Below are positions 34,694-62,196 of a DNA stretch of 64,000 bases, piece by piece. The notes below the pieces were generated by a model. That model was not told where the DNA came from. It saw only the letters and a program-made list of their open reading frames with translations, and did no database searches. The stretch covers positions 62,001 to 126,000 of the forward strand of contig NZ_KK088521.1 of NCBI RefSeq assembly GCF_000600335.2, written 5' to 3'. The stretch's first letter is position 1. Each line of letters starts with the position of its first letter. Source of the DNA: Rubellimicrobium mesophilum DSM 19309 (GTDB taxonomy: Bacteria > Pseudomonadota > Alphaproteobacteria > Rhodobacterales > Rhodobacteraceae). Both the position numbers and the translations under genes were made by a program.

Positions 34694-36128
34694 CAGAACA
34701 CCACCTGCGCGAGCTTGGTGTCGAGATAGGCGTCGAGGCCCTCGGGGCCGCCCTCGCGACCCATGCCCGAGAAGTTCGACCCCCGAACGGCGCCTCGGAG
34801 GCGGCCATGGCGAAGCTGTTGATCCCCACCATGCCGGCCTTGAGCGCGGCGACCGTCCGGCGCGCCCGCCCCGGGTCGCGGGTGAAGGCGTAGGCCGAGA
34901 GGCCCATGTCCGAGGCGTTGGCGCGGTGGAGCACCTCGTCCTCCTCGGCGAAGCGCGTGATCGCGGCGATGGGGCCGAAGTTCTCCTCGGCGAAGACGCG
35001 CATGTCGTCGGTCACCTCGGTCAGCACCGTGGGTTCGTAGAAGTGGCCTTTGTTGAAGCCCGCCGCCCGCTTGCCACCCGAGGCGAGCGTCGCGCCCAGC
35101 TTGACCGCGTCGGCGACGATGCCCTCGATCTCCTCGAGCCGCTTGCGCGAGATGAGCGGGCCCATCTGCGTCGCGGAGTCGAGCCCGTCGCCCACCTTGA
35201 GGGCCGAGGCGCGGGCCATTAAGCCCTCGACGAAGGCGTCGTGCAGCCGCTCGTGGACGAAGAAGCGGTCTGGAGTCACGCAGACCTGCCCGGCGTTGGC
35301 GAACTTGGTCGGCACCGACAGGTTCAGCGCGAGCTCCAGGTCGGCGTCGTCGTAGACGATCAGCGGCGCGTTGCCGCCAAGCTCCATGGAGACCTTCTTC
35401 ACGGTCGCGGCGGCGTCGCGGATCATCTGCTGTCCCACGCGGGTCGAGCCGGTGAGCGAGACCTTGCGGACCCGCTTGTCGGCCATGAGCGGCGCGTAGG
35501 TCGCCTCCGTCGGGCCGCTGAGGAGCTGGACCACGCCGGCGGGCAGGTCCCCGGCCCGGCAGCAGTCCACGATCAGCATCGCCGTCCCGGGGGTCTGCGA
35601 CGAGGGGCGGACAATGATGGAGCAGCCGGCGGCAAGGGCGGGCGCGACCTTGCGGGCCACCAGCGCGGCCGGGAAGTTCCAGGCGGTGAAGGCGGCGCAG
35701 ATGCCCACGGGCTCGCGCGTCACCTCGAAGCGGCCGCCGGGGACGCGGCTTTCGACGAGGCGGCCGGTGATGCGGCGGGCCTCCTCGGCGTACCAGCGGA
35801 ACTGGTCGATGGAGAGGCCCCACTCCCTCTCCGCCTGGGCGAGGGGCTTGCCGGTCTCGGAGGAGATCATGCGCGCCGCGTCGTCGCGGCGGCGGATCAT
35901 CGCGTCGGCGATCCTGTGGAGCGCATCGGCACGGCCGAAGTTGCCGATCCGGCGCCACTCGGCGAGGCCATGCTGGGCCGCGTCAAGGGCCGTCGCCGTA
36001 TCGGATGGGGTCGCGACGGGCACCTGGCCCAGGGCAACCTCCGTGACCGGCGAAAGGACCGGGGCCGCGCCGCCATCCGAGGCGCCGCACCAGGCACCGT
36101 TGATGAACAGACCAAGCGAGTGGTACAT
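34693..36128 (-). pseudogene. NAD(P)-dependent aldehyde dehydrogenase (SSADH-like), 3' frameshift
   Basis: The first about 450 residues are a normal aldehyde dehydrogenase: FTAWNFPAALVARKVAPALA, the general-base Glu in MELGGNAPLIVYDDADLE, and the nucleophile Cys in FANAGQVCVTPDRF. Near the end the frame leaves the family at EAPFGG. The other frame continues correctly with SNFSGMGREGGPEGLDAYLD to TKLAQVVF and stops at 34693, overlapping the aldolase start. The break is at a run of five C, 34780-34784; one more base would join the halves. Loss would remove only the last about 30 residues, which help form the dimer. The ATG has GGGAGGGAG upstream. Confidence 0.8.
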
Positions 36129-36148
36129 TCGGGCTCCCTCCCCTGCTG

Positions 36149-36164
36149 CGCAACAAGTTTTGCG
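36149..36164. promoter_or_regulatory. Candidate RpiR operator in the divergent iol promoter
   Basis: CGCAACAAGTTTTGCG has inverted arms CGCAA and TTGCG with a six-base spacer. It lies in the 100-base gap between the divergent aldehyde dehydrogenase (36128) and iolD (36229). The same arms and spacing recur, with one base changed, before the rpiR gene (40293-40308). An AT-rich ACATATATTG follows and may be part of a promoter. Confidence 0.55.
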
Positions 36165-36228
36165 ACATATATTGCCTTGTCAATGGGCATTCCATACTGT
36201 GTCCGGCATTCGACCTGGGAGGGACACG

Positions 36229-38082
36229 ATGACGGGACGGACGGTTCGCCTGACCATGGCGCAGGCGCTGGTGCGCTGGCTCTGCGCGCAGGAGACCGAG
36301 GTCGACGGACGGCGCGTGCCTCTGTTCGCGGGCGTGTTCGCCATCTTCGGGCATGGGAACGTCACCTGCCTCTCGGAGGCGCTGGAGGGCGTGCAGGACC
36401 GGCTGCCAACCTGGCGCGGGCAGAACGAGCAGTCCATGGCTCTTGCGGCGATGGGCTTCGCCAAGGCGCAGCGGCGGCGGCAACTGATGGTCGCGACCTC
36501 CTCCATCGGGCCGGGGGCGACCAACATGGTGACGGCAGCGGCGGCGGCCCATGCGAACCGGCTGCCGGTGCTGCTCCTGTCCGGGGACAGCTTCGCCAGC
36601 CGCGTGCCCGACCCGGTGATGCAGCAGGTGGAGCATTACGGGAACCCGACCGCCACCGTGAACGACGCGTTCCGGGCGGTGACGCGCTACTGGGATCGCA
36701 TCGCGCTCCCCGAGCAGATCATCGGCTCCCTGCCGCAGGCGGTGGCGACGATGCTCGACCCGGCGGACTGCGGGCCGGCGTTCCTCGGCCTCTGCCAGGA
36801 CACGCAGGAGAAAGCCTATGATTACCCGGCCGAGTTCTTCGCGACGCGCCTGTGGGAGATCCCGCGCCCCCGGCCGGACCGCCGAGCGGTGGTCCGCGGG
36901 GTGGAGGTGCTGAAGGGGGCGAAGGCGCCCCTCCTCATCGCCGGCGGCGGCGTGCGCTACTCGGGCGCGAGCGAGGCAGTGGCGGAGTTCGCGGCGCGGC
37001 GCGGCATCCCCGTGGTCGAGACCATCGCTGGGAAGGGCACGCTGACGCATGACCACCCGGCCCATGCCGGGCCCATCGGGATCGTCGGCTCGACCTCGGC
37101 CAACGCGCTCGCGGCCGAGGCGGACGTGGTAGTGGCCGTGGGGACGCGGCTCATGGACTTCACCACGGGGTCGTGGACGGCGTTCCGGCCCGAGGCGCGG
37201 TTCATCGGCATCAACGCCGCGCGCTGGGATGCGATGAAGCACTCGACGCTGCCCGTGGTGGGCGACGCGCTGGAGACGGTGCAGGAGCTGGACGCGGCCC
37301 TGGGCGACTGGGCGGCGCCGGCGACCCACATGGAGCGGGCCAAGTCGCTCTTCGCCGAATGGAACGCGCTCCTCGACAGGCATCAGGCGCCGACCAACGC
37401 CGAGCGGCCGACCTATGCGCAGGTGGTCGCGATCGTGAACCGCTGGGCCTCGCCCCGCGACACCGTGGTGACGGCGGCAGGCGGCATCCCGGGCGAGGTT
37501 ATGAAGGGCTGGCGGGTCAAGGACCCGAACACCTTCGACCTCGAGTTCGGCTTCTCCACGATGGGCTACGAGATCGCGGCGGGATGGGGCCACGCGCTCG
37601 CCAAGCAGGGCGACGGGATGCCGATCGTGATGATCGGCGACGGCACCTACATGATGATGAACTCGGACATCTACTCGACCGTGCTGTCGGGGCATAAGCT
37701 CGTGATCGTCGTCTGCGACAACGGCGGGTTTGCGGTCATCAACCGGCTCCAGCAGTTCAAGGGCGTGCCGGGATTCAACAACCTGCTGAAGGACTGCCGC
37801 ACGGCGGTCGAGCCTTTCCCGGTGGACTTCGCGGCCCATGCCCGCGCGATGGGCGCGGAGTCGCGGCACTGCGAGGGCCTCGCCGACCTGCAGGCGGCGC
37901 TCGGCTGGGCCAGGGGCACCGACCGGACGACGGTCCTCTCGATCCGCACGGACGCCTATGCCTGGGTGCCCGGCGACGCCGACTGGGACGTCGGCGTCCC
38001 CGAGGTGTCCGAGCGCCCGGCCGTGCAGGAGGCCCGCGCCGCGCAGGACGCCATCCGCAGGAAGCAGCGGGTCGGCGTCTGA
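36229..38082 (+). CDS. iolD: 3D-(3,5/4)-trihydroxycyclohexane-1,2-dione hydrolase
   Basis: This thiamine diphosphate enzyme opens the ring of trihydroxycyclohexane-dione in myo-inositol catabolism. The 617-residue chain has the ThDP enzyme layout: catalytic Glu region RGQNEQSMALAAMGFAK, central domain LLIAGGGVRYSGASEAV, and the ThDP/Mg motif GDGTYMMMNSDIYSTV with NGGF. The opening RLTMAQALVRWL and LFAGVFAIFGHGNV are specific to IolD. ATG 36229 has GGAGGG upstream; longer upstream frame is not family-like. It heads the plus-strand arm of the island and lies next to the candidate RpiR operator. Confidence 0.94.
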   Translation: MTGRTVRLTMAQALVRWLCAQETEVDGRRVPLFAGVFAIFGHGNVTCLSEALEGVQDRLPTWRGQNEQSMALAAMGFAKAQRRRQLMVATSSIGPGATNMVTAAAAAHANRLPVLLLSGDSFASRVPDPVMQQVEHYGNPTATVNDAFRAVTRYWDRIALPEQIIGSLPQAVATMLDPADCGPAFLGLCQDTQEKAYDYPAEFFATRLWEIPRPRPDRRAVVRGVEVLKGAKAPLLIAGGGVRYSGASEAVAEFAARRGIPVVETIAGKGTLTHDHPAHAGPIGIVGSTSANALAAEADVVVAVGTRLMDFTTGSWTAFRPEARFIGINAARWDAMKHSTLPVVGDALETVQELDAALGDWAAPATHMERAKSLFAEWNALLDRHQAPTNAERPTYAQVVAIVNRWASPRDTVVTAAGGIPGEVMKGWRVKDPNTFDLEFGFSTMGYEIAAGWGHALAKQGDGMPIVMIGDGTYMMMNSDIYSTVLSGHKLVIVVCDNGGFAVINRLQQFKGVPGFNNLLKDCRTAVEPFPVDFAAHARAMGAESRHCEGLADLQAALGWARGTDRTTVLSIRTDAYAWVPGDADWDVGVPEVSERPAVQEARAAQDAIRRKQRVGV

Positions 38083-38107
38083 CGCCGCCCGGTTGGCCCA
38101 AGCCGGA

Positions 38108-38145
38108 GGCAGCCACGCCGCGACGACCGTGTCGGGGTGGCTGCC
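38108..38145. other. Hairpin between iolD and the shortened iolE
   Basis: GGCAGCCAC (38108-38116) pairs perfectly with GTGGCTGCC (38137-38145) around a 20-base loop. There is no T-run. It may stabilise the iolD transcript end or reduce readthrough. Confidence 0.45.
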
Positions 38146-38192
38146 CCGACCTGACCGGCAGGTCCACCATCGCAAGGAAAGGTTAAGAAAGC

Positions 38193-38537
38193 ATGAAGGC
38201 CAGGCTCGGCATCGCCCCCATCTCGTCGTGGAACCACGACCTCGCGGATCTGTCGGACGACGTGTCGCTGGAGGAGTGCCTGCGGCAGGCCCCGGAGGCG
38301 GAATTCACCGGGATGGAGACCGGGCACCGGCTTCCGATGGACAGGAAGGCGCCGAGGCCCAACCTCGACCACCGCGGCATTCGGGTCCGCGGGGGGTGGT
38401 TCCCGGACCTCCTGCCCGACGGGAACCCTGAGGCGGGGAAGGATCCGAACAAGGTCCCGCCGGCCGAGATGGCACGGATCGGACAGCGGGAGCGGATGCG
38501 CGTCAGGAGCGCCGACGGCTACGAGGTGGCCCAATGA
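38193..38537 (+). pseudogene. iolE: Shortened myo-inosose-2 dehydratase with large internal deletion
   Basis: The open frame encodes 114 residues instead of the about 300 of IolE. The first part is a good IolE N terminus (MKARLGIAPISSWNHDLADL, DDVSLEECLRQAPEAEFTGM, a degraded GGWF segment). The last about 30 residues (KDPNKVPPAEMARIGQRE to SADGYEVAQ) resemble the C-terminal end of IolE. The middle TIM-barrel with its metal ligands is missing. The frame is still open and its stop overlaps the SDR start (ATGA), so the deletion kept the frame or is followed by compensating change. It cannot be an active dehydratase. There is a GAAAGG-type ribosome site upstream. Confidence 0.7.
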
Positions 38538-39352
38538 ACCGCATGGACGGCAAGGTCTGCCTGGTCACCGGGGCGACGCAGGGACTCGGGGCGGCAGTCG
38601 CGCGGCGCCTCTCGCAGGCCGGCGCGGCCGGCGTGGTCATCACCGGGCGCAACGCCGAGAAGGGCGAAGCCACGGCTCGCTCCATCGCCGAGGCCAGCGG
38701 AACGACCGTGCAGTTCGTCCAGGCGGACTTCGCCCGGGTCGAGGATTGTCGTTCGGCGGTGGCCGAGGTGGACCGGCTCTTCGGGCGGCTCGACGTGCTG
38801 GTGAACGCCGGCGCCTCGACCGAGCGAGGGACGATCCTCGACACCTCGCCGGAGCTCTTTGACCGGATGTTCGCCACCAACGTGCGCGGGCCGTTCTTCC
38901 TGATGCAGGAGGCGATCCGGCTGATGATCCGCGACGGCGTGGAGGGCGCCATCTGCAACGTGGGCTCGATCTCGGCGCTGGCCGGGCAGCCCTTCATCAA
39001 TCCCTACTGCGCCTCCAAGGGGGCGTTGACGACCCTGACCGCCAACACCGCCTTCTCGGTCATGGCGAACCGCATCCGCGTCAACCAGCTCAACGTCGGC
39101 TGGATGGCCTCGGACAACGAGCGGCTCCTGCAGGCCGAGGGCGGCGATCCCGACTGGGAGGCGAAGGCGGCGGCCAAGCTGCCCTTCGGTCGACTCGTGG
39201 ACCCGGAGGAGGCGGCGCGGGCGATCAACTTCCTCGTCTCCGACGACGCGGGGCTGATGACCGGGGCGATCGTCAACTTCGACCAGTCGGTCTGGGGCGC
39301 GGTGGCGGGAGGGATGCCCGTGCCGGACGAGCCGATGACGCTCCCGGGCTGA
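38534..39352 (+). CDS. Short-chain dehydrogenase/reductase
   Basis: This classical SDR oxidoreductase has 272 residues. The cofactor motif is VTGATQGLG near residue 12, NAG in LVNAGASTERG, the catalytic Ser in CNVGSISALAGQ, and Tyr/Lys in NPYCASKGAL. The C-terminal end (NFDQSVWGAVAGGMPVPDEP) is characteristic of a sugar-polyol SDR group found in inositol clusters. It overlaps the shortened iolE by four bases. Probably an inositol or sugar dehydrogenase; the substrate is inferred from context. Confidence 0.9.
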   Translation: MNRMDGKVCLVTGATQGLGAAVARRLSQAGAAGVVITGRNAEKGEATARSIAEASGTTVQFVQADFARVEDCRSAVAEVDRLFGRLDVLVNAGASTERGTILDTSPELFDRMFATNVRGPFFLMQEAIRLMIRDGVEGAICNVGSISALAGQPFINPYCASKGALTTLTANTAFSVMANRIRVNQLNVGWMASDNERLLQAEGGDPDWEAKAAAKLPFGRLVDPEEAARAINFLVSDDAGLMTGAIVNFDQSVWGAVAGGMPVPDEPMTLPG

Positions 39353-39359
39353 CCGGGCC

Positions 39360-39380
39360 GGGGGAGCGCGCGGCTCCCCC
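39360..39380. terminator. Hairpin between convergent SDR and rpiR genes
   Basis: GGGGGAGC (39360-39367) pairs with GCTCCCCC (39373-39380) around a five-base loop in the 33-base convergent gap. No T-run is present on either side, so it is a weak or Rho-assisted terminator. Confidence 0.5.
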
Positions 39381-39385
39381 CCTCC

Positions 39386-40261
39386 TCAGGCGGTCGTGAC
39401 GATGGGAATGCGCGGGCTCCCCTCGCCTTGCAGCCGCGCCGCCAGCGCGACCGCGAGGGCCTGCGCGAGGCACATGGGCGCGGCCAGCGAGCGCGAGAAG
39501 GTGTATTCGTGCTCGGGCACCGCGAAGAGGACGCTCGCCCCTTTGGCGAGCGGCGAGAGCGTGCTGTCGGAGATCGCCACGATGGGCACTCCGCGCGCCG
39601 CCGCCTCCTCGGCCACGTTCACCACCTCAGTCGCGTAGAAGCGGAAGGACACGGCGAGGAGCAGGTCCGAGGGGCACGCCGCGCGCGCCATGTGGGTCGC
39701 AAGCCCTCCGCCGGGGTCGAGGAGCACGGTCCGCTTGCCGAGCATGGTCAGGACGTAGCGCAAGAGCTCCACGACGGGCACCGAGCGGAGCTGACCCAGG
39801 AGGTAGATCGTGTCCGCCTGCTCCATCAGCGTGACGGCCCGTGCGATCTGCTCGGCGGAGATGTCGGCGACGAGGTCCTGGAGCGAGGAGATGTCCCGCA
39901 CGACCAGGTCGCGCAGGAAGCCGAGCTCGCTCCGATCCTCGCGCCCGCCGAGCTCGGATTCGAGGGCGCGCACGCGTGCATCGAAGCCTGGAGCCGCGGT
40001 GGTCAGCCGCACGCGGAAGAGCTGCTGGAGCTCCTTGAAGCCTGAGAATCCAAGCGCCTGCGCGAAGCGGACCAGATTGGACGCATGGATCCCGCAGCGC
40101 TCGGCGATGGCGCCGACCGGCAGGACGCCGACGTCGTTCGGATTCTGCGTCAGGTAGAGCGCGATCTTCTGGTAGGCCTTGCTCATCCCCTCGTAGCGGT
40201 CGTGGATGACCCGGATGAGCTCCTCGTAGCTGCGAGGCGCAGCGTAGGCTTCGTCAGGCAT
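39386..40261 (-). CDS. MurR/RpiR-family regulator, probable inositol (IolR-like) repressor
   Basis: This 291-residue regulator has an N-terminal RpiR HTH (RYEGMSKAYQKIALYLTQNP, IAERCGIHASNLVRFAQALG) and a C-terminal SIS sugar-phosphate-binding domain (ADTIYLLGQLRSVPVVELLR, LLAVSFRFYATEVVNVAEEA). RpiR-type proteins control inositol genes in many alphaproteobacteria. ATG 40261 has GGAGG about eight bases upstream. It is convergent with the SDR gene. An operator-like repeat lies in its own promoter and another between the divergent catabolic arms, fitting autoregulation plus pathway control. Confidence 0.9.
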   Translation of the reverse strand: MPDEAYAAPRSYEELIRVIHDRYEGMSKAYQKIALYLTQNPNDVGVLPVGAIAERCGIHASNLVRFAQALGFSGFKELQQLFRVRLTTAAPGFDARVRALESELGGREDRSELGFLRDLVVRDISSLQDLVADISAEQIARAVTLMEQADTIYLLGQLRSVPVVELLRYVLTMLGKRTVLLDPGGGLATHMARAACPSDLLLAVSFRFYATEVVNVAEEAAARGVPIVAISDSTLSPLAKGASVLFAVPEHEYTFSRSLAAPMCLAQALAVALAARLQGEGSPRIPIVTTA

Positions 40262-40292
40262 CGAGACGTCCTCCACGCCGCTGTCGGCAGTT

Positions 40293-40308
40293 CGCAACGT
40301 TCTTTGCA
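40293..40308. promoter_or_regulatory. Candidate RpiR operator in the rpiR promoter
   Basis: CGCAACGTTCTTTGCA has the same CGCAA arm and the TTGC core of the second arm at the same six-base spacing as 36149-36164. It lies 32 bases upstream of the rpiR ATG. Confidence 0.5.
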
Positions 40309-40759
40309 GGCGGCGGACTGGCTGTCCATGACCGTGTGGCGTCCCTGGCCGGGGGGTCGCCGAAGGACGGCCTCGCCGATCGGCTGCGCAGGCCGTGGTC
40401 CGGGCGAGGCGAGCCGCTGCTCGATCTCGTCGAGCATGGCGGCCCGTGGGTGGTGTTCGTCAGTTCGCTCTGGATGGACGGGCGGCCAGGTTGCGGACCC
40501 GCCTTGAGGCAGGACCTGCCCGAGGCCTCGCGAGTGTCGCGCCGTGGACTTGATCTCGGGCTTGCCAAGGCTGGCGAGGCGGTGGCCGCAGGAACCTCGA
40601 TGCGAGGATCGGCCGACGTCCTCTCGCTGGCGATGCGCCGATCTGCTCGACGGTCCCTGCTCGACGCGGACAGGTTCCTCACCCGCCGTTGCATTTCAGC
40701 ATTGTCTAACATACGTCTGCGAAGTTGGATGCGTTTCACCCGAAGGAGCGTCGTGCAGG
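40309..40759. other. Non-coding stretch upstream of the sulfur-response locus
   Basis: No gene is supported here. Long frames on both strands have arginine- and serine-rich translations typical of shadow frames in GC-rich DNA. The stretch ATTGTCTAACATACG near 40700 is AT-rich and may be a promoter for the small gene at 40760. Confidence 0.5.
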
Positions 40760-40951
40760 ATGCGGGCTGGCCAGTCGGAGCTTGGGATTGTCGGGACGCG
40801 CGCATTCGCCCTTGCCGCGCTTTCCGCGGCCGGGGGTTGGGGCTGGAGCCTTCTGGTGGTTGCAGCGACGCCAGTCCTGGCCGGCTTCTCGCGCGTCTAC
40901 CCTGCTGGCCTGACGATGATCGTGGACCCTTGCGCCAGGAGTGGAGCATGA
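40760..40951 (+). CDS. Small membrane protein, degenerate DUF2892-like
   Basis: This frame of 63 residues has one or two hydrophobic stretches (TRAFALAALSAAGGWGWSLL, VVAATPVLAGFSRVYPAGL) and ends TMIVDPCARSGA. The last part matches the DUF2892 pattern of a hydrophobic hairpin, CP-like turn and terminal Cys, but the usual first Cys is a Val-Tyr. AAGGAG lies about ten bases before the ATG. The position upstream of a sulfur-type ArsR regulator with another DUF2892 gene nearby supports the call. It could instead be a decayed copy. Confidence 0.4.
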   Translation: MRAGQSELGIVGTRAFALAALSAAGGWGWSLLVVAATPVLAGFSRVYPAGLTMIVDPCARSGA

Positions 40952-41120
40952 CCATTCAACAAGGCTCGGGATTCGTGGCCCATGCGCCGGCGGGTCCGAC
41001 GGTCGCGCGGCCGTCGGACGTGCTCCGGGGTGACCGGACGGCCCAACTGCGGAGAGCGAGACGGCATCCCAGGTCGAGAGGCCGGCACAGGGTCGGCGAG
41101 GCTGCAAAGGATCACAGGCC

Positions 41121-41468
41121 ATGACGGAACGCGTGACCGACCCGGCGATGCCGACTCTCTGTCGCGACCATGCGTCCGAGATCGAGGTCCTCGAAGGCAA
41201 GGCGGATCAGGCGGCGCGGCTGCTGGCCGCGCTCGGGCAGACCAAGCGGCTGATGGCGCTCTGCCGCCTCATGGACAACGAGATGTCCGTCGGGGCCCTG
41301 GCCGAAGCCGTGGGTCTCGGGCAGTCCGCGCTGTCCCAGCACCTGGCCCGGCTGCGGGACCTCGGACTCGTGGCGACGCGTCGTGACGGACAGACCATCT
41401 ACTACCGCTTGGCCTCGGAGGAGGCACGGCGGCTCATCTCCGTCCTCTACGACATCTACTGCCGCTGA
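41121..41468 (+). CDS. ArsR-family repressor with the SqrR/BigR dithiol pair
   Basis: This 115-residue winged-helix repressor has the core MALCRLMDNEMSVGALAEAV and LGQSALSQHLARLRDLGLVA and TIYYRLASEEARRLI. Cys48 in ALCRL and Cys114 near the C terminus (YDIYCR) are 66 residues apart, the same spacing as the two cysteines of SqrR/BigR that form a polysulfide bridge when persulfides are present. Metal-binding ArsR motifs (CxC) are absent. A third Cys14 is extra. Downstream rhodanese, DUF2892 and efflux genes fit a persulfide response. The function is inferred by cysteine geometry and context. Confidence 0.8.
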   Translation: MTERVTDPAMPTLCRDHASEIEVLEGKADQAARLLAALGQTKRLMALCRLMDNEMSVGALAEAVGLGQSALSQHLARLRDLGLVATRRDGQTIYYRLASEEARRLISVLYDIYCR

Positions 41469-41937
41469 GCTGGACTCTCGGCGCAGGATGCAGGTCTTGG
41501 GTCCGGTCGGCCGCGCGGGCTTCGGGCCGGGGGCGCCGGGGGTGGGGCGTCGCTCGTGATGTTCGTCGACCCGAACGGCCCCCGCCACCTCATTGGCTAG
41601 ACCGGATAGGTTACGACACTCGGGGGTGCCGCCCGGTTCTCCCACGAACGGCGCAGGACCTCTCCTGCGCGCATGATCCGGTTGCGGAACCCCAGCGGGC
41701 CTTCGCCTGGGGTTTCGGCTCGCCTCGGATGGGGGCGCGGATGTGCCGGTCGTCCTTGCACGTGCCATCGGCCGTCGTGCCCTGGCTTGAGCGGACCTTG
41801 CAGGCAAGCATGGCCACGGGCTCGGCCGAGCGGACCTGCGGCCCACCGTGCTCGACCGGGATGATGCTTCGCGCGATGGCGCTGCAGTCGGGCTCGATGG
41901 CTGAATTCCTCGGGGAAAGGTCTTGCGAAGCGCGGCA
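41469..41937. other. Non-coding stretch between the repressor and rhodanese genes, with two hairpins
   Basis: No protein is supported. Two hairpins stand close together: GCGCAGGA/TCCTGCGC (41651-41670, four-base loop) and AACCCCAG/CTGGGGTT (41688-41714, eleven-base loop) followed by TTTCGG. The second could be a terminator. The rest has no visible structure and reads like decayed coding DNA. Confidence 0.5.
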
Positions 41938-41976
41938 GGACTATATATTAGATAGTTATAGGATACGTATTTAAGG
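41938..41976 (+). promoter_or_regulatory. AT-rich promoter/operator island before the rhodanese gene
   Basis: This is about 35 bases of almost pure A/T in a 70% GC region, ending in AAGGAG at 41972-41977. Arms CTATA (41941-41945) and TATAG (41957-41961) are inverted, and a GATAGTTATAGG core fits a -10-like element. BigR-type repressors bind AT-rich palindromes, so this is a good candidate operator. The rhodanese ATG is about 30 bases downstream. Confidence 0.6.
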
Positions 41977-42005
41977 AGACTACTTCCGTACTGGGCTTTC
42001 GATCC

Positions 42006-42323
42006 ATGGCTGTCATCAGGACCATGACCCCGAACGAAGTTCGTGACCTCCTTGCGCACGGCGCGATCACCTTGGTGGACGTGCGCGAGGACGAGGAATG
42101 GGCTCGCGAGCGCATTCCGGGCGCCCTCCACCATCCATTGTCGCGGCTGCACGCGACGGCTGCGTCGCTTCCCGAGCAGACGCCTGTCGTGTTCCACTGT
42201 CTCGCCGGTCGTCGTTCCGCGCAGGCCGTCGCGCTGTGCCGGTCGTTGGGGCTGGGGCACGATACCCACATGGCCGGCGGCCTTTCGGCCTGGAAGGCGC
42301 AGGGTCTGCCCGTGTCGCGATAG
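42006..42323 (+). CDS. Single-domain rhodanese (sulfurtransferase)
   Basis: This 105-residue cytoplasmic rhodanese has the domain start TPNEVRDLLAHGAITLVDVR, the CH2A-like RIPGALHHPLSRL and the active-site loop VFHCLAGRRSAQ with Cys65 as the persulfide carrier. It moves sulfane sulfur, for example from thiosulfate or persulfides. ATG 42006 is taken as the start; the nearest good ribosome site AAGGAG is 28 bases away and no in-frame earlier start exists, so initiation is unusual. It is the first gene after the AT-rich operator. Confidence 0.9.
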   Translation: MAVIRTMTPNEVRDLLAHGAITLVDVREDEEWARERIPGALHHPLSRLHATAASLPEQTPVVFHCLAGRRSAQAVALCRSLGLGHDTHMAGGLSAWKAQGLPVSR

Positions 42324-42449
42324 GTTCCGACGGCTGCCTCCTGACTGGCCGATACGGATGCAGATTCCCCCCGGCGGCCCCTGTCGACGCCACCTCGCCC
42401 GCAAAGGGCAACGGGCTTCGATCCTTGCATTGCGCAACTGGAGAATCTC

Positions 42450-42650
42450 ATGACCCTCGACCTCAGCGTCCTCGCCTTCGCCGGAGCCATGGTGCTCCTG
42501 TCGGTCCTGCTGACCGCCTTCGTCCATCCGGCCTTCGTCTGGCTCACGGTCTTCGTCGGGCTGAACATGGTCCAGTCGGCCTTCACCGGCTTCTGCCCGG
42601 CCCGGTCGGCCTTCAAGGCGCTCGGGGTCAAGCCCGGCTGCGCCTCCTGA
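42450..42650 (+). CDS. DUF2892/YgaP-transmembrane-like protein
   Basis: This is a 66-residue inner-membrane protein with two helices (LSVLAFAGAMVLLSVLLTAF, FVWLTVFVGLNMVQSAFTGF) and the family end FCPARSAFKALGVKPGC with two cysteines. The same domain is fused to rhodanese in E. coli YgaP, and here it sits 126 bases after a separate rhodanese, a split version of the same pair. GGAG lies just before the ATG. Confidence 0.88.
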   Translation: MTLDLSVLAFAGAMVLLSVLLTAFVHPAFVWLTVFVGLNMVQSAFTGFCPARSAFKALGVKPGCAS

Positions 42651-42665
42651 GCCCGGGGGCCGGCG

Positions 42666-43621
42666 ATGCGCCTCATTCCCGCCTTCCTCCTGTCGGCCGC
42701 GACGGCGACCTCCGCCTGGGCCGACTCCCTCGTCCTCGCGCCCGAGACCCTGCCCGAGTGGAAGGCCGTCTACGGGCGCGTCGAGGCCCGCGACACCGTC
42801 CCCGCCCGCGCGCCGGACTCGGCGGCGTCCTCGTGGAGCTGCTGGTCTCCGAGAGCGACGCCGTCACGGCAGGGCAGCGCATCGCGGTGGTCCGCGACGA
42901 CAAGATCGGCTTCCAGATCTCGGCGCTGGACGCCCAGCTCAAGGCGCTGCAGGCCCAGCTCGACAACGCCGAGGCCGAGCTCGCGCGCGGCGAGACCCTG
43001 GTCGACCAGGGCGTCGCCACCACGCAGCGGCTCGACCAGCTCCGCACCCAGGCCGACGTCGCCCGCAACCAGATCGCCTCCACCGAGGCGCAGCGGCAGC
43101 TCGCCATGGAGCAGGACGCCGAGGGCGAGGTCCTGGCCCCTCTCGACGGCCGGGTCCTGGGCGTGCCCGTCACGCGCGGCGCCGTGGTCCTGGCGGGCGA
43201 GACCGTCGCGACCCTCGGCGGCGGCGGCTTCTTCCTGCGCCTCGCCATCCCCGAGCGCCACGCCGCGCTCCTTCGGGAAGGCGCGACGCTGGCGGTCGAG
43301 ACCGGGCCGGGCTCGGTCGAGGGCCGCCTCGCCAAGGTCTACCCGCAGGTCGAGAACGGCCGCGTGGTGGCCGACGTGGAGGTGGACGGCCTGCCCACCG
43401 ACTTCGTTGACGCCCGCCTCCTCGTCCGCGTCCCTGTGGGCTCGCGCGAGGCGCTGATGATCCCGGCCGAGGCGGTCGCCACCCGGTCGGGGCTCGACTT
43501 CGTCACCGTGACGGGCCCCGAGGGCGAGGTCCAGCGCACCGTGGTGCTGGGCGAGCGCGACGGCGACCGGGTCGAGGTCCTGACGGGCCTCGCCGCGGGG
43601 GAGGAGGTGGTCACGCCATGA
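42666..43621 (+). pseudogene. RND efflux membrane-fusion protein, frameshifted near the N terminus
   Basis: The start MRLIPAFLLSAATATSAWAD is a signal peptide, and the first about 50 residues run to EARDTVPARA. The family sequence then continues in another frame: GGVLVELLVSESDAVTAGQR, the coiled coil (ALDAQLKALQAQLDNAEAEL to QRQLAMEQDA), the lipoyl return EVLAPLDGRVLGVPVTRGAV and the beta-barrel/MP domain to EEVVTP. A single base is missing near 42800-42830; it is not an obvious homopolymer. The stop overlaps the pump start (ATGA). In an intact form it would be about 318 residues and bridge the RND pump to an outer-membrane channel. Confidence 0.75.
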
Positions 43622-46600
43622 AGCTCGGGCTTGCAGGCCACCTGACGCGGAGCTTCATCGGCTCCGCGCTCACCCCGCTGTTCCTCCTCGCCGCCCTCGC
43701 CATGGGCCTCGTCGCGCTGATGACCCTCCCGCGCGAGGAGGAGCCGCAGATCTCGGTCCCCATGGTGGACATCCTCGTCTCCGCCCCAGGACTCCGGGCC
43801 GAGGACGCGGTGAAGCTCGTGACCGAGCCGCTGGAGACCATCGTCAAGGGCATCGACGGGGTCGAGCACGTCTATTCCCAGACCCGCGACGACCGGGTCA
43901 TGGTCACGGCGCGCTTCCTCGTGGGCACCTCCTCGGACGCTGCCGTGCTGCGCGTCCACGACAAGGTGCGTGCCAACATGGACCGCATCCCCGTCGGCAT
44001 CCCCGAGCCCCGGATCGTCGGGCGCGGCATCGACGACGTGGCTATCGTCGCCCTCACCCTCTCTCCCACTCCCGCCGAGGCCGACCACGTCACCCCCGCC
44101 GACCTGTCCCGCGTCGCCCGCGAGCTGCGGGCCGAGGTCGCCAAGGTCGAGGACGTGGGCCTCACCTACCTCGTCGGCGAGACCGGCGACGCGATCCGCG
44201 TGGCCCCCGACCCGGAACGGCTCGCGCTCTACGGCGTCACCCTCCAGCAGCTCGCCGGCAAGGTGACGGCGGCCAACACTGCGCTCCCCACCGGCCTCGT
44301 CCGCGAGGGCGGGCAGCAGATCGAGGTCGTCGCGGGCGAGACGCTGCGGACGCCCGCCGATATCGGCAACCTGCTCCTGACCTCCCGCGATGGCCGTCCC
44401 GTCTATGTCCGCGACGTGGCCGACGTCGCCTTCGCCACCGACAACGCCGACCTCTATGCCTCCACCGTGACGCGGGGCGAGGACGGCCAGCCGGTCCGCG
44501 TCCCCGCCGTGACGCTCGCCGTCGCCAAGCGCGCGGGCTCCAACGCCGTCACGGTCGCCGAGGAGGTGCTGGCGCGCGTCGACAGCCTCAAGGGCTCGCT
44601 GATCCCCGAGGGCATCGAGGTCGAGGTCACCCGCGACTACGGCGAGACCGCGAACGAGAAGGCGAACGAGCTCCTCTTCCACCTCGGCCTCGCGACGCTC
44701 TCGATCATCGCGCTCGTCTGGCTCGCCATCGGGCGGCGCGAGGCGCTGGTGGTCGCGGTCGTCATCCCGGTGACGATCCTTCTCACCCTCTTCGCCGCGA
44801 ACGTCATGGGCTACACGCTGAACCGGGTGTCCCTCTTCGCGCTGATCTTCTCCATCGGCATCCTCGTGGACGACGCCATCGTCGTCATCGAGAACATCGC
44901 CCGCCACTGGGCCATGGGCGACGGCCGATCCCGCCGCGACGCCGCGGTGGACGCCGTGGCCGAGGTCGGCAACCCGACCATCGTCGCCACCCTCACCGTC
45001 GTCGCGGCGCTCCTGCCGATGCTCTTCGTCTCCGGCATGATGGGTCCCTACATGAGCCCGATCCCCGCCAACGCCTCGGCAGCGATGATCTTCTCCTTCT
45101 TCGTCGCGGTGATCGTCACGCCCTGGCTGATGCTGAAGGTCGCGGGCAACGCCCCCGTCCACGCCCACAGCCCCCATCACGCGGGCGGCGCCCTGGGCCG
45201 CGCCTACGCCGCCGTCGCCCGCCCGATCCTGTCCTCCAAGGCGGCGAGCTGGGCCTTCCTCCTCGGCGTCATCGCGCTGACGGTCGGCTCCCTCGCGCTG
45301 TTCTGGACCAAGGACGTGACGGTCAAGCTCCTGCCCTTCGACAACAAGTCCGAGCTCGCCGTGATGATCGACCTCCCCGAGGGCGCCTCGGTCGAGGCCA
45401 CCGACGCAGCGGCGCAGGAGGTCGCGCGCGTGGCGTTCGGGATGCCCGAGGTCGTCTCCGTCCAGACCCACGCCGGCACCGCCGCGCCCTTCAACTTCAA
45501 CGGCCTCGTCCGCCACTCCTACCTCCGCGCCGAGCCGCAGCTCGGCGACGTGCAGCTCAACTTGAAGCCCAAGGGCGAGCGCGACCGCCCGAGCCACGAG
45601 ATCGCCCTCGACCTGCGGAGCCGCCTCGCCGCCCTGACGGTGCCGCCCGGCACCTCGCTCAAGGTCGTGGAGCCGCCGCCGGGCCCCCCGGTCATGGCCA
45701 CGCTGCTCGCCGAGATCTACGGCCCCGACGCCGACACCCGCCGCGCCGTCGCGAGCCGCGTCGAGGAGGCCGTCCGCTCCGTCCCCTTCGTCGTGGACGT
45801 GGACGACTCCTTCGGCACCCCCGCCCCACGCCTGCGCACGACCATCTCCACCGACGACCTCGAATTCTTCCACGTCGAGGAGAAGGACGTGCTCGACACC
45901 CTCTCCATCCTCAACGGCGCCTCGACGGTCGGCTACTCGCACCGGGGCGGCGGCCGCGCGGCCATCCCCATCGTGATCGAGCGGCCCCGGGGCGAAAAGG
46001 TCCTCGACGAGACCGCACTGACCACCCCCATCCCCGCCAACGTCCTGCCCGGCGACCGGGGCGTGGTCGAACTCGGCGACGTGATCCGCACGCGGGAGGA
46101 GACGGCGAGCTTCCCCATCTTCCGCCACAACGGCCGCAACGCCGAGATGGTCACCGCCGAGCTCGCCGGCGCCTTCGAGGCCCCGCTCTACGGGATGCTG
46201 GCCGTGCGGGACGCCCTCGACGCCCAGGACTGGACCGGCCTGCCCAAGCCCGAGATCGCCCTCCACGGCCAGCCCGAGGACGAGTCCCGCCCGACCCTCC
46301 TCTGGGATGGCGAATGGGAGGTGACATGGGTCACCTTCCGCGACATGGGCGCGGCCTTCGGGGTGGCGCTGCTCGGCATCTACATCCTCGTGGTCGCCCA
46401 GTTCGGCTCCTTCAAGCTGCCGCTGGTGATCCTGACGCCGATCCCTCTCACCTTCATCGGCATCCTGGGCGGCCACTGGCTCTTCCACGCGCCCTTCACC
46501 GCGACCTCGATGATCGGCTTCATCGCCCTCGCCGGGATCATCGTGCGCAACTCGATCCTGCTGGTGGACTTCGTCCGCCACGCCCCGCGCGAGGTTCCCG

Positions 46601-46906
46601 CCCGCGGCGCCCCCGAGGATGACGAGCCCGACATGGCCATCGTCGCCCCGCCACCCCACGAGATCCCCGCGCCCCCCCTGCGCGAGGACGGTCGAGCGCC
46701 CCCTGACCGAAATCCTGATCGAGGCCGGGTCGATCCGCTTCAAGCCGATCCTGCTGACGGCGCTCGCGGCGATGATCGGCGCCGCCGTGATCCTGACCGA
46801 CCCGATCTTCCAGGGGCTCGCCCTCTCGCTCCTCTTCGGCCTCGCCTCCTCGACGCTGCTGACCGTGCTGGTCATCCCGGCGATCTACCGGGTGTTCCGA
46901 ACCTGA
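43618..46906 (+). pseudogene. RND efflux pump inner-membrane subunit, frameshifted near the C terminus
   Basis: About 1,020 residues form a normal AcrB/MexB-fold pump: VDILVSAPGLRAEDAVKLVT, the proton-relay Asp pair in SIGILVDDAIVVIENIARHW, two periplasmic porter regions and the second half with GFIALAGIIVRNSILLVDFV. The frame then meets seven C at 46672-46678, after which the family text moves to another frame: VERPLTEILIEAGSIRFKPI to LVIPAIYRVFRT, stop 46906. Removing one C joins them. About 30 residues just before the break (PREVPARGAPEDDEP...) form a Pro-rich loop not usual in the family. Read unrepaired, the last two membrane helices would be lost. Confidence 0.8.
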
Positions 46907-47047
46907 GATGGCGCGGTGGCCAGCCGCCTGACGCGAGAGGCGAGCCATCCACGTCGGGGCGTCGAGGCGCTCCGCAAGGAAGCTGTCGAGGCCGGCTCCG
47001 GGACGTTCCTGGCGACGCACCGGCCGGGGGCCGCGATCCTGATCCCG

Positions 47048-47887
47048 TCAGTCGAACGTCACCTTGCGGACATCGAAGCGGCCGTAGGTGAAGGCTCCCT
47101 CGGTCCGATGCCAGATCGCCTCTCCTCGCGTGGCCACTCGACGGCCGTCGAACTCCCGGTAGTCCGAGAGCGGCGTGGTCCAGCGCTGGACCCTGAGGCC
47201 GCCGTCGGGCTGGAGCTCGCCCCGGTCGTCGGAGACGAAGTCGACGAGGTCGCCCTCCGCGTCGAAGACCAGCGTCGCCGAGACGACGTGCGGCCCGGCG
47301 GCAAAGGTCACGCCGGCATGGGTCGCGTCGATCGGCGTCCAGCCGAACTCCGGCCGGACCAGGGCCGAAGGGGCGAAGACGCAGAGGTCGTTGAGCAGGG
47401 TCACGGTCTCGGTCCGCGCGAGGTCCGGGCCGGACACGTCCACCATGTCGATGAGCCGCGCGGCACGGGCGCGCATGGTGGCCTCCTCGGGCCGGTAGTC
47501 GTGGAACACCGCGACGGGGAGGCCGTGCATCCGCGTGGTCATGAAGAAGAGACGGCGAGGCGGGTCCACCACGTCGATCTGATGGGCGGGGCCGGTCATG
47601 CCCGGTGCCCCGGGAGCGCCGTAGAGGGTGGCCTCGAACATGGTGTGGACCGAGGAGACAGGCGGCTTCCCCAGGGCGCCCGCGCGGCGCAGGTAGCGTC
47701 GCACCGGCTCGGGCAGATGCCCCAGGTCGGCCTCGGTCAGCGGCGCGCCGACCGGACCGGGGACCAGTCCGGCGAGGCGCCTCTCGAACTCGGCGGAGAG
47801 GTTGCCGCCGGGGCGAAGGGCCAGGGCGGCGAGCGCGGCCCCGGTAAGGGCCACGGCGGCGACGGGGATGGCGATGCTCTTCCTCAT
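47048..47887 (-). CDS. DUF6544-family protein, membrane-anchored or exported
   Basis: This 279-residue protein has an N-terminal hydrophobic segment (SIAIPVAAVALTGAALAALAL) that is a signal anchor or signal peptide. The family pattern LPEPVRRYLRRAGALGKPPV is followed by a beta-rich domain (TMFEATLYGAPG, FGWTPIDATHAGVTFAAG, REFDGRRVATRGEAIWHR) like DUF6544 proteins. Function is unknown; the fold resembles lipoprotein carriers such as LolA in overall character. ATG 47887 has GGAGG upstream and is preferred to an ATG at 47920. It is convergent with the RND pump. Confidence 0.75.
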   Translation of the reverse strand: MRKSIAIPVAAVALTGAALAALALRPGGNLSAEFERRLAGLVPGPVGAPLTEADLGHLPEPVRRYLRRAGALGKPPVSSVHTMFEATLYGAPGAPGMTGPAHQIDVVDPPRRLFFMTTRMHGLPVAVFHDYRPEEATMRARAARLIDMVDVSGPDLARTETVTLLNDLCVFAPSALVRPEFGWTPIDATHAGVTFAAGPHVVSATLVFDAEGDLVDFVSDDRGELQPDGGLRVQRWTTPLSDYREFDGRRVATRGEAIWHRTEGAFTYGRFDVRKVTFD

Positions 47888-61314: not shown

Positions 61315-62196
61315 TCAGGCGGATTCGCCGAGCGCTGTCCGAAGGTTGCCGCCCGAGGCCGCCAGGCGCTGCGTGGCGTCCTCGGGCGAGGTGCCGCCCG
61401 CGATCAGGACGGCCCTCTTGATGTTCCACCCGGCGGTGTCGAGGGCGGCGAGGGCGGCGTCGGGCGGGCAGGCGGCGAGGCGGGCGACCATGTCCACGGC
61501 GCGGGCCCTGAGCTTGTCGTTCAGGGGGCGCATGTCCACCATGAGGCCGCGATAGACCCGGCCCAGGCGGATCATCAGGGCCGTGGAGATCATGTTGAGC
61601 ACGACCTTCTGCGCCGTCCCGGCCTTCATTCGCGTGGAGCCGGCCACGACCTCGGCGCCCGTGTCCACGAGGATGGGGGCGTCGCAGGTGGTGAGCAGCG
61701 CGGCGCTGGCGCTGTTGGAGACGCCGATCGTGTAGGCGCCCGCCGCGCGGGCCGATTCGAGGGCGGCCAGGGTGAACGGGGTCCGCCCGCTGGCGGCGAG
61801 CCCGATCAGCACGTCGTCCGCGCCCAGCCCTGCCTCCGCGACCTGCCGACGGGCGTCGTCGGCGTCGTCCTCCGCGCCCTCGACCGAACGGATGAGGGCA
61901 TCCGAGCCGCCCGCGACGAGGAAGGCCGTCCGCTCCTCGGGCCAGTCGAAGGTGGGCGCGAGCTCGGTGCCGTCCTGCACGGCGATGCGGGCCGAGGTGC
62001 CCGCGCCGGCGTAGAGGAGCCGGCCGGAGCCCCGGGCCAACCGCTCGGCCGCCGCGTCCACCGCGCGCGAGATCACCGGGAGCGCCGGCCCGACCGCCGC
62101 GGCGGCGGCGAGCTGGCCCTCCCAGATCGCGCGGGCGACCTCGGGCGTGGTCCAGGCGTCGAGGTCGCGGTAGCGGGGATCGACGGTTTCGGGCAT
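61315..62196 (-). CDS. murQ: N-acetylmuramic acid 6-phosphate etherase
   Basis: The enzyme splits the lactyl ether of MurNAc-6-P to give GlcNAc-6-P in cell-wall recycling or scavenging. The 293-residue chain has a SIS domain with GRLLYAGAGTSARIAVQDG and the conserved catalytic segment ELAPTFDWPEERTAFLVAGG, plus VLIGLAASGRTPFT and GSTRMKAGTAQKVVLNM. The C-terminal UBA-like tail is present. It is convergent with the EEP gene (two bases apart) and divergent from the FAD oxidoreductase. Together with a BadF-type kinase it supports muropeptide sugar use. Confidence 0.93.
   Translation of the reverse strand: MPETVDPRYRDLDAWTTPEVARAIWEGQLAAAAAVGPALPVISRAVDAAAERLARGSGRLLYAGAGTSARIAVQDGTELAPTFDWPEERTAFLVAGGSDALIRSVEGAEDDADDARRQVAEAGLGADDVLIGLAASGRTPFTLAALESARAAGAYTIGVSNSASAALLTTCDAPILVDTGAEVVAGSTRMKAGTAQKVVLNMISTALMIRLGRVYRGLMVDMRPLNDKLRARAVDMVARLAACPPDAALAALDTAGWNIKRAVLIAGGTSPEDATQRLAASGGNLRTALGESA

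Follow-up and report, generated by a model that had tools for sequence, protein, structure and literature searches.

SqrR of Rhodobacter capsulatus, whose sensor cysteines are Cys41 and Cys107 (PMC9774590), belongs to a regulon with SQR and the rhodanese rcc01557 (PMC9995734), and its site has been deduced as ATTC-N8-GAAT (PMC9774250). BigR operons (bigR-blh of Xylella and Agrobacterium; bigR with yeeE-yedE-pdo2 in Acinetobacter) combine a repressor with a sulfurtransferase and a membrane transporter (PMC5823870, PMC7315123). Similarly, in ygaVP of E. coli the ArsR protein YgaV is followed by the rhodanese-type YgaP (PMC9774250). Here we describe a locus of Rubellimicrobium mesophilum DSM 19309 that resembles all three. 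It lies in a stretch of 64,000 nucleotides, positions 62,001 to 126,000 of contig NZ_KK088521.1, that was analysed as a whole and is called the window below. A dithiol ArsR repressor with BigR-like and, more distantly, SqrR-like features is followed, all on the + strand, by a 537-bp gap, a rhodanese, a DUF2892 membrane protein, an RND adaptor and an RND pump. The locus is probably a reactive-sulfur-responsive operon that is derepressed by persulfides, with the pump as part of a conserved alphaproteobacterial sulfide response. The pump family is assigned to this response because of its conserved neighbours and of conserved SqrR sites.

The locus differs from each of the known systems. The window ArsR is only distantly related to SqrR, and the candidate site in the window is AT-rich but other than ATTC-N8-GAAT. 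Unlike BigR operons, the locus contains an RND adaptor and pump instead of YeeE/YedE or TauE, and no PDO in the operon. Whereas YgaP unites the rhodanese and the membrane part in one protein, the window has two genes, each with its own Pfam domain, and the RND pair after them.

RND efflux pump genes are among the apparent targets of ArsR regulators that respond to sulfane sulfur (Li et al. 2025, PMC12423496). This claim rests on gene neighbourhood, and the relevant section of that paper is silent on DUF2892 and on operator sites at the pumps. MexR controls the RND pump MexAB-OprM of Pseudomonas aeruginosa, and this pump is derepressed by sulfane sulfur (PMC11211675); MexR is a MarR-family sensor of a multidrug pump, whereas the window sensor belongs to the ArsR family. 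A preliminary description of the window regarded a link between reactive sulfur sensing and an RND pump as unusual. That judgement does not hold, as the ArsR–RND pump link is already in print as an inference, has a counterpart in MexR, and recurs in many alphaproteobacterial genera. Term searches of papers on SqrR, including PMC9995734, gave no mention of an RND pump in the portions of text searched.

The ArsR gene (41121-41468) encodes a protein of 115 residues with a winged helix-turn-helix (Pfam HTH_5, 47.7 bits, cut-off 22) and three cysteines, Cys14, Cys48 and Cys114. Cys48 and Cys114 are 66 residues apart, a SqrR/BigR-like spacing that the preliminary description had pointed out and that the sequence bears out, with Cys14 as an extra. 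The best relatives in the PDB are HlyU (84 bits), NolR (79 bits), BigR (76 bits), YgaV (72 bits) and SqrR (65 bits), and both C48 and C114 align with cysteines of HlyU. Its fold, nearest relatives and cysteine positions place the protein in the SqrR/BigR/HlyU/YgaV dithiol group. Judged by these scores, it is a member of the dithiol subgroup and neither BigR nor SqrR proper. Specifically, it reaches 65 bits to SqrR, the window has no exact SqrR site, and the genome itself has no SqrR match at 1e-35.

The setting of plasmid-borne relatives provides the best evidence for what this ArsR senses. Eight plasmid contexts, previously unviewed, were picked by hand from 40 listed of 981 records with an ArsR match, and seven of the eight contain an annotated sulfur gene (YeeE/YedE, PDO-type MBL hydrolase, rhodanese, TauE or sulfite oxidase). 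The Microvirga context has YeeE, TauE, MBL hydrolase and rhodanese; Paracoccus Arc7-R13 has MBL hydrolase and YeeE; Pseudosulfitobacter has rhodanese, MBL hydrolase and YeeE; and Neotabrizicola has a TIGR01244 sulfurtransferase, MBL hydrolase, YeeE and DUF2892. Acetobacter has a rhodanese, Sulfitobacter a sulfite oxidase and Methylobacterium YeeE, and the eighth, Sphingobium, has a UPF0721 membrane protein only. Thus several relatives sit in BigR-type operons, which suggests that the window ArsR may likewise sense reactive sulfur.

The genes after ArsR agree with the preliminary description, which had read them as a rhodanese, a separate DUF2892 protein (the two halves of YgaP as two genes) and an RND adaptor/pump pair; each has Pfam support. 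The single-domain rhodanese, a sulfurtransferase (42006-42323; Pfam Rhodanese 63.5 bits, cut-off 22.2), has an active-site-like loop, CLAGRRS, which we take to be the rhodanese active site. The DUF2892/YgaP-like transmembrane protein (42450-42650, 66 residues; YgaP-like_TM 41.7 bits, cut-off 25.3) carries an FCP motif. The RND periplasmic adaptor (MFP; 42666-43621) matches HlyD_3 with 40.6 bits, and its C-terminal piece, 42824-43618, matches RND_mfp with 129.9 bits (cut-off 94.9). The RND pump (43618-46906) matches ACR_tran with 431 bits. The first 360 bases of the range given for the locus, 40760-46906, hold no recognised gene.

The pump is HAE-like. A DD pair in transmembrane segment 4 (TM4) marks HAE pumps, and the window pump has GILVDDA in TM4 and IIVRNS in TM10. 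The best curated multidrug permease model for the piece 43618-46677 is RND_permease_2, with 384.6 bits, which exceeds the 220 bits (cut-off 701) on the CusA/CzcA heavy-metal RND model. The nearest relatives with solved structures are named efflux pump membrane transporter, MexB, AcrB, MdtF and similar.

Next, we analysed the neighbours of orthologous pumps. Among the 196 genomes of the order (those listed are all marked as the window's own family), 41 have a pump match at E ≤1e-150, counting the own genome, and 40 of these matches have at least 65% identity. With the own genome excluded, those 65% or more identical gave 39 order-sample loci; L104, a second pump of 45-47% identity, and four other low-identity matches were left out. 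A second set, genome_contigs, consists of the best 80 of 585 pump relatives and is biased toward window-like contexts. Together with plasmid loci, these yielded 125 distinct loci (130 minus five duplicates), to which the order sample contributes 34, plasmids 11 and genome_contigs 80. As controls, 40 other RND loci of the order were picked by hand from the listed TIGR00915 matches in 61 genomes. Neighbours were counted within 6 kb of the pump with one tblastn query set and one limit.

Among the 80 genome_contigs loci, at least one sulfur marker is found at 52: ArsR at 31, DUF2892 at 47, SQR at 22, a TIGR01244 sulfurtransferase at 7 and PDO type at 1. For the 57 of these loci with full flanks, the counts are ArsR 22, DUF2892 33, SQR 14, TIGR01244 6, PDO 1 and rhodanese 0, with any marker at 38 and none at 19. 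The 39 order-sample loci have ArsR at 12 (one of these, at L099, lacks the cysteine pair), DUF2892 at 7 and SQR at 3. In the 40 control loci, a single ArsR is the sole member of the sulfur set, and DUF2892 and SQR are both absent. ArsR is thus present at 22 of 57 orthologous loci versus 1 of 40 controls (Fisher p 2e-5), and ArsR with the cysteine pair at 11 of 39 versus 1 of 40 (p 0.0015); related species are not independent, so these p values are descriptive. Because ArsR and DUF2892 recur in orthologous loci and hardly at all in control RND loci, their association with this pump is beyond chance, and it extends across many alphaproteobacterial genera. In this respect the ArsR–pump link of the preliminary description is conserved, as an ArsR-DUF2892-pump link.

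Clustering of open reading frames (ORFs) at the 125 loci, without preset queries, gave the same picture. The most frequent non-pump neighbours are DUF2892 (59 loci), ArsR (46 loci) and SQR (31 loci). The next clusters (26, 26 and 23 loci) are antisense frames of SQR and DUF2892, with 77 of 78 members overlapping them, and ABC-transporter ATPases come next (22 loci) and are regarded as background. The FCP motif of the window protein is present in 55 of the 59 DUF2892 cluster members. Using tblastn on the same loci, we found ArsR at 50, DUF2892 at 62, SQR at 31 and rhodanese at 5. Both sensor cysteines are present in 51 of 55 ArsR matches within pump loci, a total that includes the window copy and species represented twice. 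The four exceptions are the ArsR after the pump in Sphingomonas and in Asticcacaulis, a second Asticcacaulis ArsR and that of L099. In Sphingomonas MM-1 (L113:10216-10551) and Asticcacaulis AND118 (L114:10204-10515), the ArsR directly 3' of the pump has a cysteine spacing of 62 instead of 66. This places the second cysteine about one helix turn earlier, possibly as a variant of the dithiol sensor.

Plasmid loci illustrate the range of contexts. The pump locus of Paracoccus denitrificans has ArsR, DUF2892, SQR and a sulfurtransferase; that of Rhizobium SL42 has the same genes more spread out. The locus of R. rhizogenes has ArsR, an SQR-like oxidoreductase and DUF2892, and that of Nitratireductor has ArsR and DUF2892 with the adaptor-pump pair. 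Two Azospirillum loci and those of Methylocella, Sphingomonas and Asticcacaulis have ArsR, DUF2892 and rhodanese, and an oxidoreductase in all except A. thermophilum. The closest parallel to the window is found in Sphingomonas and Asticcacaulis, where the rhodanese lies directly 5' of the adaptor. No annotated sulfur gene is present at the plasmid pump loci of Shinella and Alloyangia (L115), although an exact SqrR site marks the operon start of the latter. A Vibrio pump of 42% identity, excluded from the counts (L116), has an adjoining DUF2892. The P. denitrificans oxidoreductase, the one that was checked, is a mitochondrial-type SQR (211 bits to mitochondrial SQOR chains). A compact sulfide island surrounds this pump on plasmid 1 of P. 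denitrificans PD1222 (L106, 182173-199109), comprising an MBL hydrolase, DUF2892, YeeE, DUF6691, a TIGR01244 sulfurtransferase, ArsR, cytochromes c and b, DUF2892, the RND pair, DUF5368 and SQR. The pump locus of this strain carries the tags PDEN_RS23385/23380.

The deduced SqrR site is concentrated at the pump. The 125 loci contain 60 exact ATTC-N8-GAAT sites, of which 47 (at 46 loci) lie at −1.45 to −0.80 kb of the pump start, i.e., where the pump operon begins. With 13 in the remaining 1.85 Mb, the sites are concentrated 83-fold at the operon start. The 40 control loci contain 6 exact sites in 0.60 Mb. A clustered ArsR within 7 kb is missing at 35 of the 46 site-bearing loci, and therefore the pump seems to be the target of a distant SqrR there. 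None of the 48 ArsR genes at pump loci has the exact site immediately 5' of itself. Where clustered ArsR, DUF2892 and SQR are all missing (52 loci), the site is present at 25 and absent from 27 (by tblastn 49, 24 and 25). Other relatives have AT-rich palindromes of a different make directly before DUF2892.

SqrR proper is also found near this pump. SqrR matches at 1e-35 are present in 105 of the 196 order genomes; the five best (71-78% identity) lie 0.3-2.5 kb from an orthologous pump, and the next two (71%) are on separate contigs. In Rhodobacter aestuarii, used as a stand-in for R. capsulatus, the ArsR about 1.5 kb past the pump end shares 97 of 105 aligned residues with the SqrR chain 6o8k (196 bits), the related entry 6O8N being SqrR (PMC9774590). 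An SqrR site is also found at this locus, at −1.10 kb, where the pump operon begins. Therefore, the pump link exists around SqrR proper, in the genus of SqrR itself.

In the window, which has a GC content of 70%, a candidate operator/promoter lies at 41937-41979, just before the rhodanese. Nowhere else in the 64 kb do 36-mers reach 27 A/T, and the stretch ends with AAGGAGA. A palindromic weight matrix, trained on the upstream regions of 41 relatives with the window excluded, has its best window match at 41945-41964 (17.2 bits; next non-overlapping match, 9.1 bits). The position is right for a promoter or operator and makes the stretch a candidate ArsR site; because the matrix is AT-rich, it counts as an operator-like place rather than a proven ArsR site. 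Homology of the window site to the sites of 20 relatives was considered and dropped, as ungapped identity gave no clear winner: L117 matches 17/29 at 41941, L124 matches 18/29 at 40687 and 17 at 41939, and many are best elsewhere. Such homology is not claimed because any AT-rich stretch matches. The genome as a whole has 12 exact palindromic SqrR sites versus about 7 expected from base composition by our estimate, and the reversed pattern, with one match, is a poor control.

Based on the chemistry and domain composition of these families, the operon might work as follows. Reduced ArsR dimers on 41937-41979 would block the promoter of the rhodanese, DUF2892, adaptor and pump genes. By analogy to SqrR, BigR and HlyU, persulfides or polysulfides would then bridge C48 and C114 as a polysulfide, and the repressor would be released. 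The rhodanese would move sulfane sulfur, and the small membrane protein would supply the other half of a YgaP-like pair as a protein of its own. The RND pair would export something harmful when reactive sulfur rises, the simplest cargo being lipophilic or thiol-bound sulfane sulfur (glutathione persulfide, polysulfanes or elemental-sulfur-like species). Export of persulfides or polysulfanes by the pump is a plausible, putative function.

The amino acid composition of the pump fits such a setting. The window pump has no cysteine in the part read, 43618-46677, and 122 of 125 orthologue segments are cysteine-free; among the 40 control pumps, which come from this order too, 12 lack cysteine (control mean 1.1 Cys). 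Common descent partly explains this scarcity, which fits a pump that would work amid persulfides. It is a tentative idea that this almost cysteine-free RND family is a standing output of SqrR and BigR in Alphaproteobacteria and a dedicated exporter of sulfane sulfur from the membrane or periplasm, having lost cysteines that its cargo would modify. If true, bacteria would have one more export route for detoxifying sulfide, next to TauE and YeeE-type carriers.

Several observations weigh against a sulfide-responsive operon here. As to the sensor and its site, the ArsR scores 95.4 bits on the NCBIfam BigR equivalog NF040642, below the curated cut-off of 155, and none of the exact SqrR sites of the genome falls in the window. 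The operator-like site is weaker than in most relatives (at least 19 bits in 33 of 41, with a matrix that is AT-biased), and neither a sigma-70-like promoter nor a terminator was found in 40290-42460. As to gene content, the window type of rhodanese is found near just 5 of the 125 pumps, all five on annotated plasmids, and near none of the 80 genome_contigs pumps; the window gene order with rhodanese is a rare version, and this slightly lowered our confidence. No SQR relative was found in the genome, which is 91.6% complete, and a PDO-type protein is present. Elsewhere, 28 of the 80 genome_contigs loci have no sulfur marker, and at 25 of the 125 loci (27 by ORF clustering) the exact site is missing and no ArsR, DUF2892 or SQR lies within 7 kb. 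Finally, as sequenced, both RND genes are broken: the adaptor is split by a frameshift at about 42806-42824, and the pump changes frame at about 46590-46690, so that its tail from about 46690 to 46906 is in another frame than its first ~990 codons.

One frameshift each in adaptor and pump would be expected of decaying pseudogenes, a reading we regard as unlikely. The two pieces read run for 1,285 codons without a stop, the best relative of the pump piece shares 84% identity with it, and the pump is a single open frame of more than 1,000 residues in all 125 orthologues. The source is a draft genome (126 contigs, 4.92 Mb, 3.7% contaminated) in which dnaE likewise appears as two overlapping frames (contig C97, 790-1833 and 1832-3895) and rpoC is whole; indel errors in the assembly are thus probable, and an assembly error is a likelier cause of the split genes than decay. 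The preliminary description was right to ask that the sequence be confirmed first. Even less probable is an accidental neighbourhood, in which ArsR would control only itself or other genes and the rhodanese-to-pump genes would be under other control. The 537-bp gap between ArsR and rhodanese, which has no recognised gene, the missing exact site and the rare gene order would suit it, as would another AT-rich stretch, less pronounced and some 400 bp 5' of ArsR (40687-40720), also a possible operator. However, the best operator-like site precedes the rhodanese, just as the sites of relatives precede DUF2892 or the adaptor, and the ArsR-pump association recurs elsewhere.

The nature of the pump leaves two further alternatives. 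A heavy-metal or arsenic efflux locus, with a metal-sensing ArsR and a metal-exporting pump, is hardly credible. ArsR/SmtB family membership and a weak resemblance of the adaptor to CzcB-type adaptors (89.9 bits, cut-off 319) point that way, but the pump scores far below the cut-off of the heavy-metal model and below its multidrug-type score. The TM4 DD pair also speaks against it, the cysteines are at persulfide-sensor positions, and SmtB reaches 48-50 bits to the window ArsR versus 84 for HlyU. This reading was rejected on the model scores and the TM4 motif. It is possible, though we doubt it, that the operon is controlled by persulfides and that the pump protects the envelope in general or expels xenobiotics, being switched on with reactive sulfur, as reported for MexAB-OprM under MexR (PMC11211675), without exporting sulfur species. 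The HAE-like motifs and the kinship with MexB, AcrB and MdtF agree with this, whereas the recurrent neighbours of the pump are sulfur genes (SQR, and DUF2892 with ArsR), and no curated multidrug permease model was passed (RND_permease_2, cut-off 1250). To our knowledge, the MexAB-OprM operon has no sulfur genes.

A persulfide-derepressed operon with a pump of the sulfide response therefore remains our preferred reading, and it is ordinary in kind. Enzymes that oxidise persulfides and TauE/YeeE carriers have been described, and a role of RND pumps beside them rests on gene neighbourhood. Of the conserved SqrR site at the pump, DUF2892 in the unit and the cysteine scarcity, no report was found in the portions of open-licence PMC literature searched. 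(A selenite study, PMC10128140, is irrelevant: in the text seen, the name sqrR denotes a sigma-54 regulator.) With its SqrR promoter sites, the conserved pump is a specific and widely distributed candidate for such a role, which would link the sensing of reactive sulfur to RND efflux in a case other than MexR and suggests that RND pumps of this kind are part of ordinary sulfide defence.

Two gene-poor gaps flank ArsR, 40298-41120 (~820 bp) and 41469-42005 (537 bp), whose content is not explained by Pfam, Rfam or plasmid DNA matches. Eight long frames in and around them match no Pfam family, and no Rfam family or small RNA was found at gathering scores in 39000-47500. Plasmid DNA relatives of 40298-42460 comprise 14 records, all of which match query positions 950-1122, i.e., the ArsR gene, and none of which extends outside it. 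The adjoining locus, 35614-40297, encodes a thiamine-pyrophosphate enzyme, a short-chain dehydrogenase and an RpiR-type regulator, and resembles a sugar or inositol catabolism cluster.

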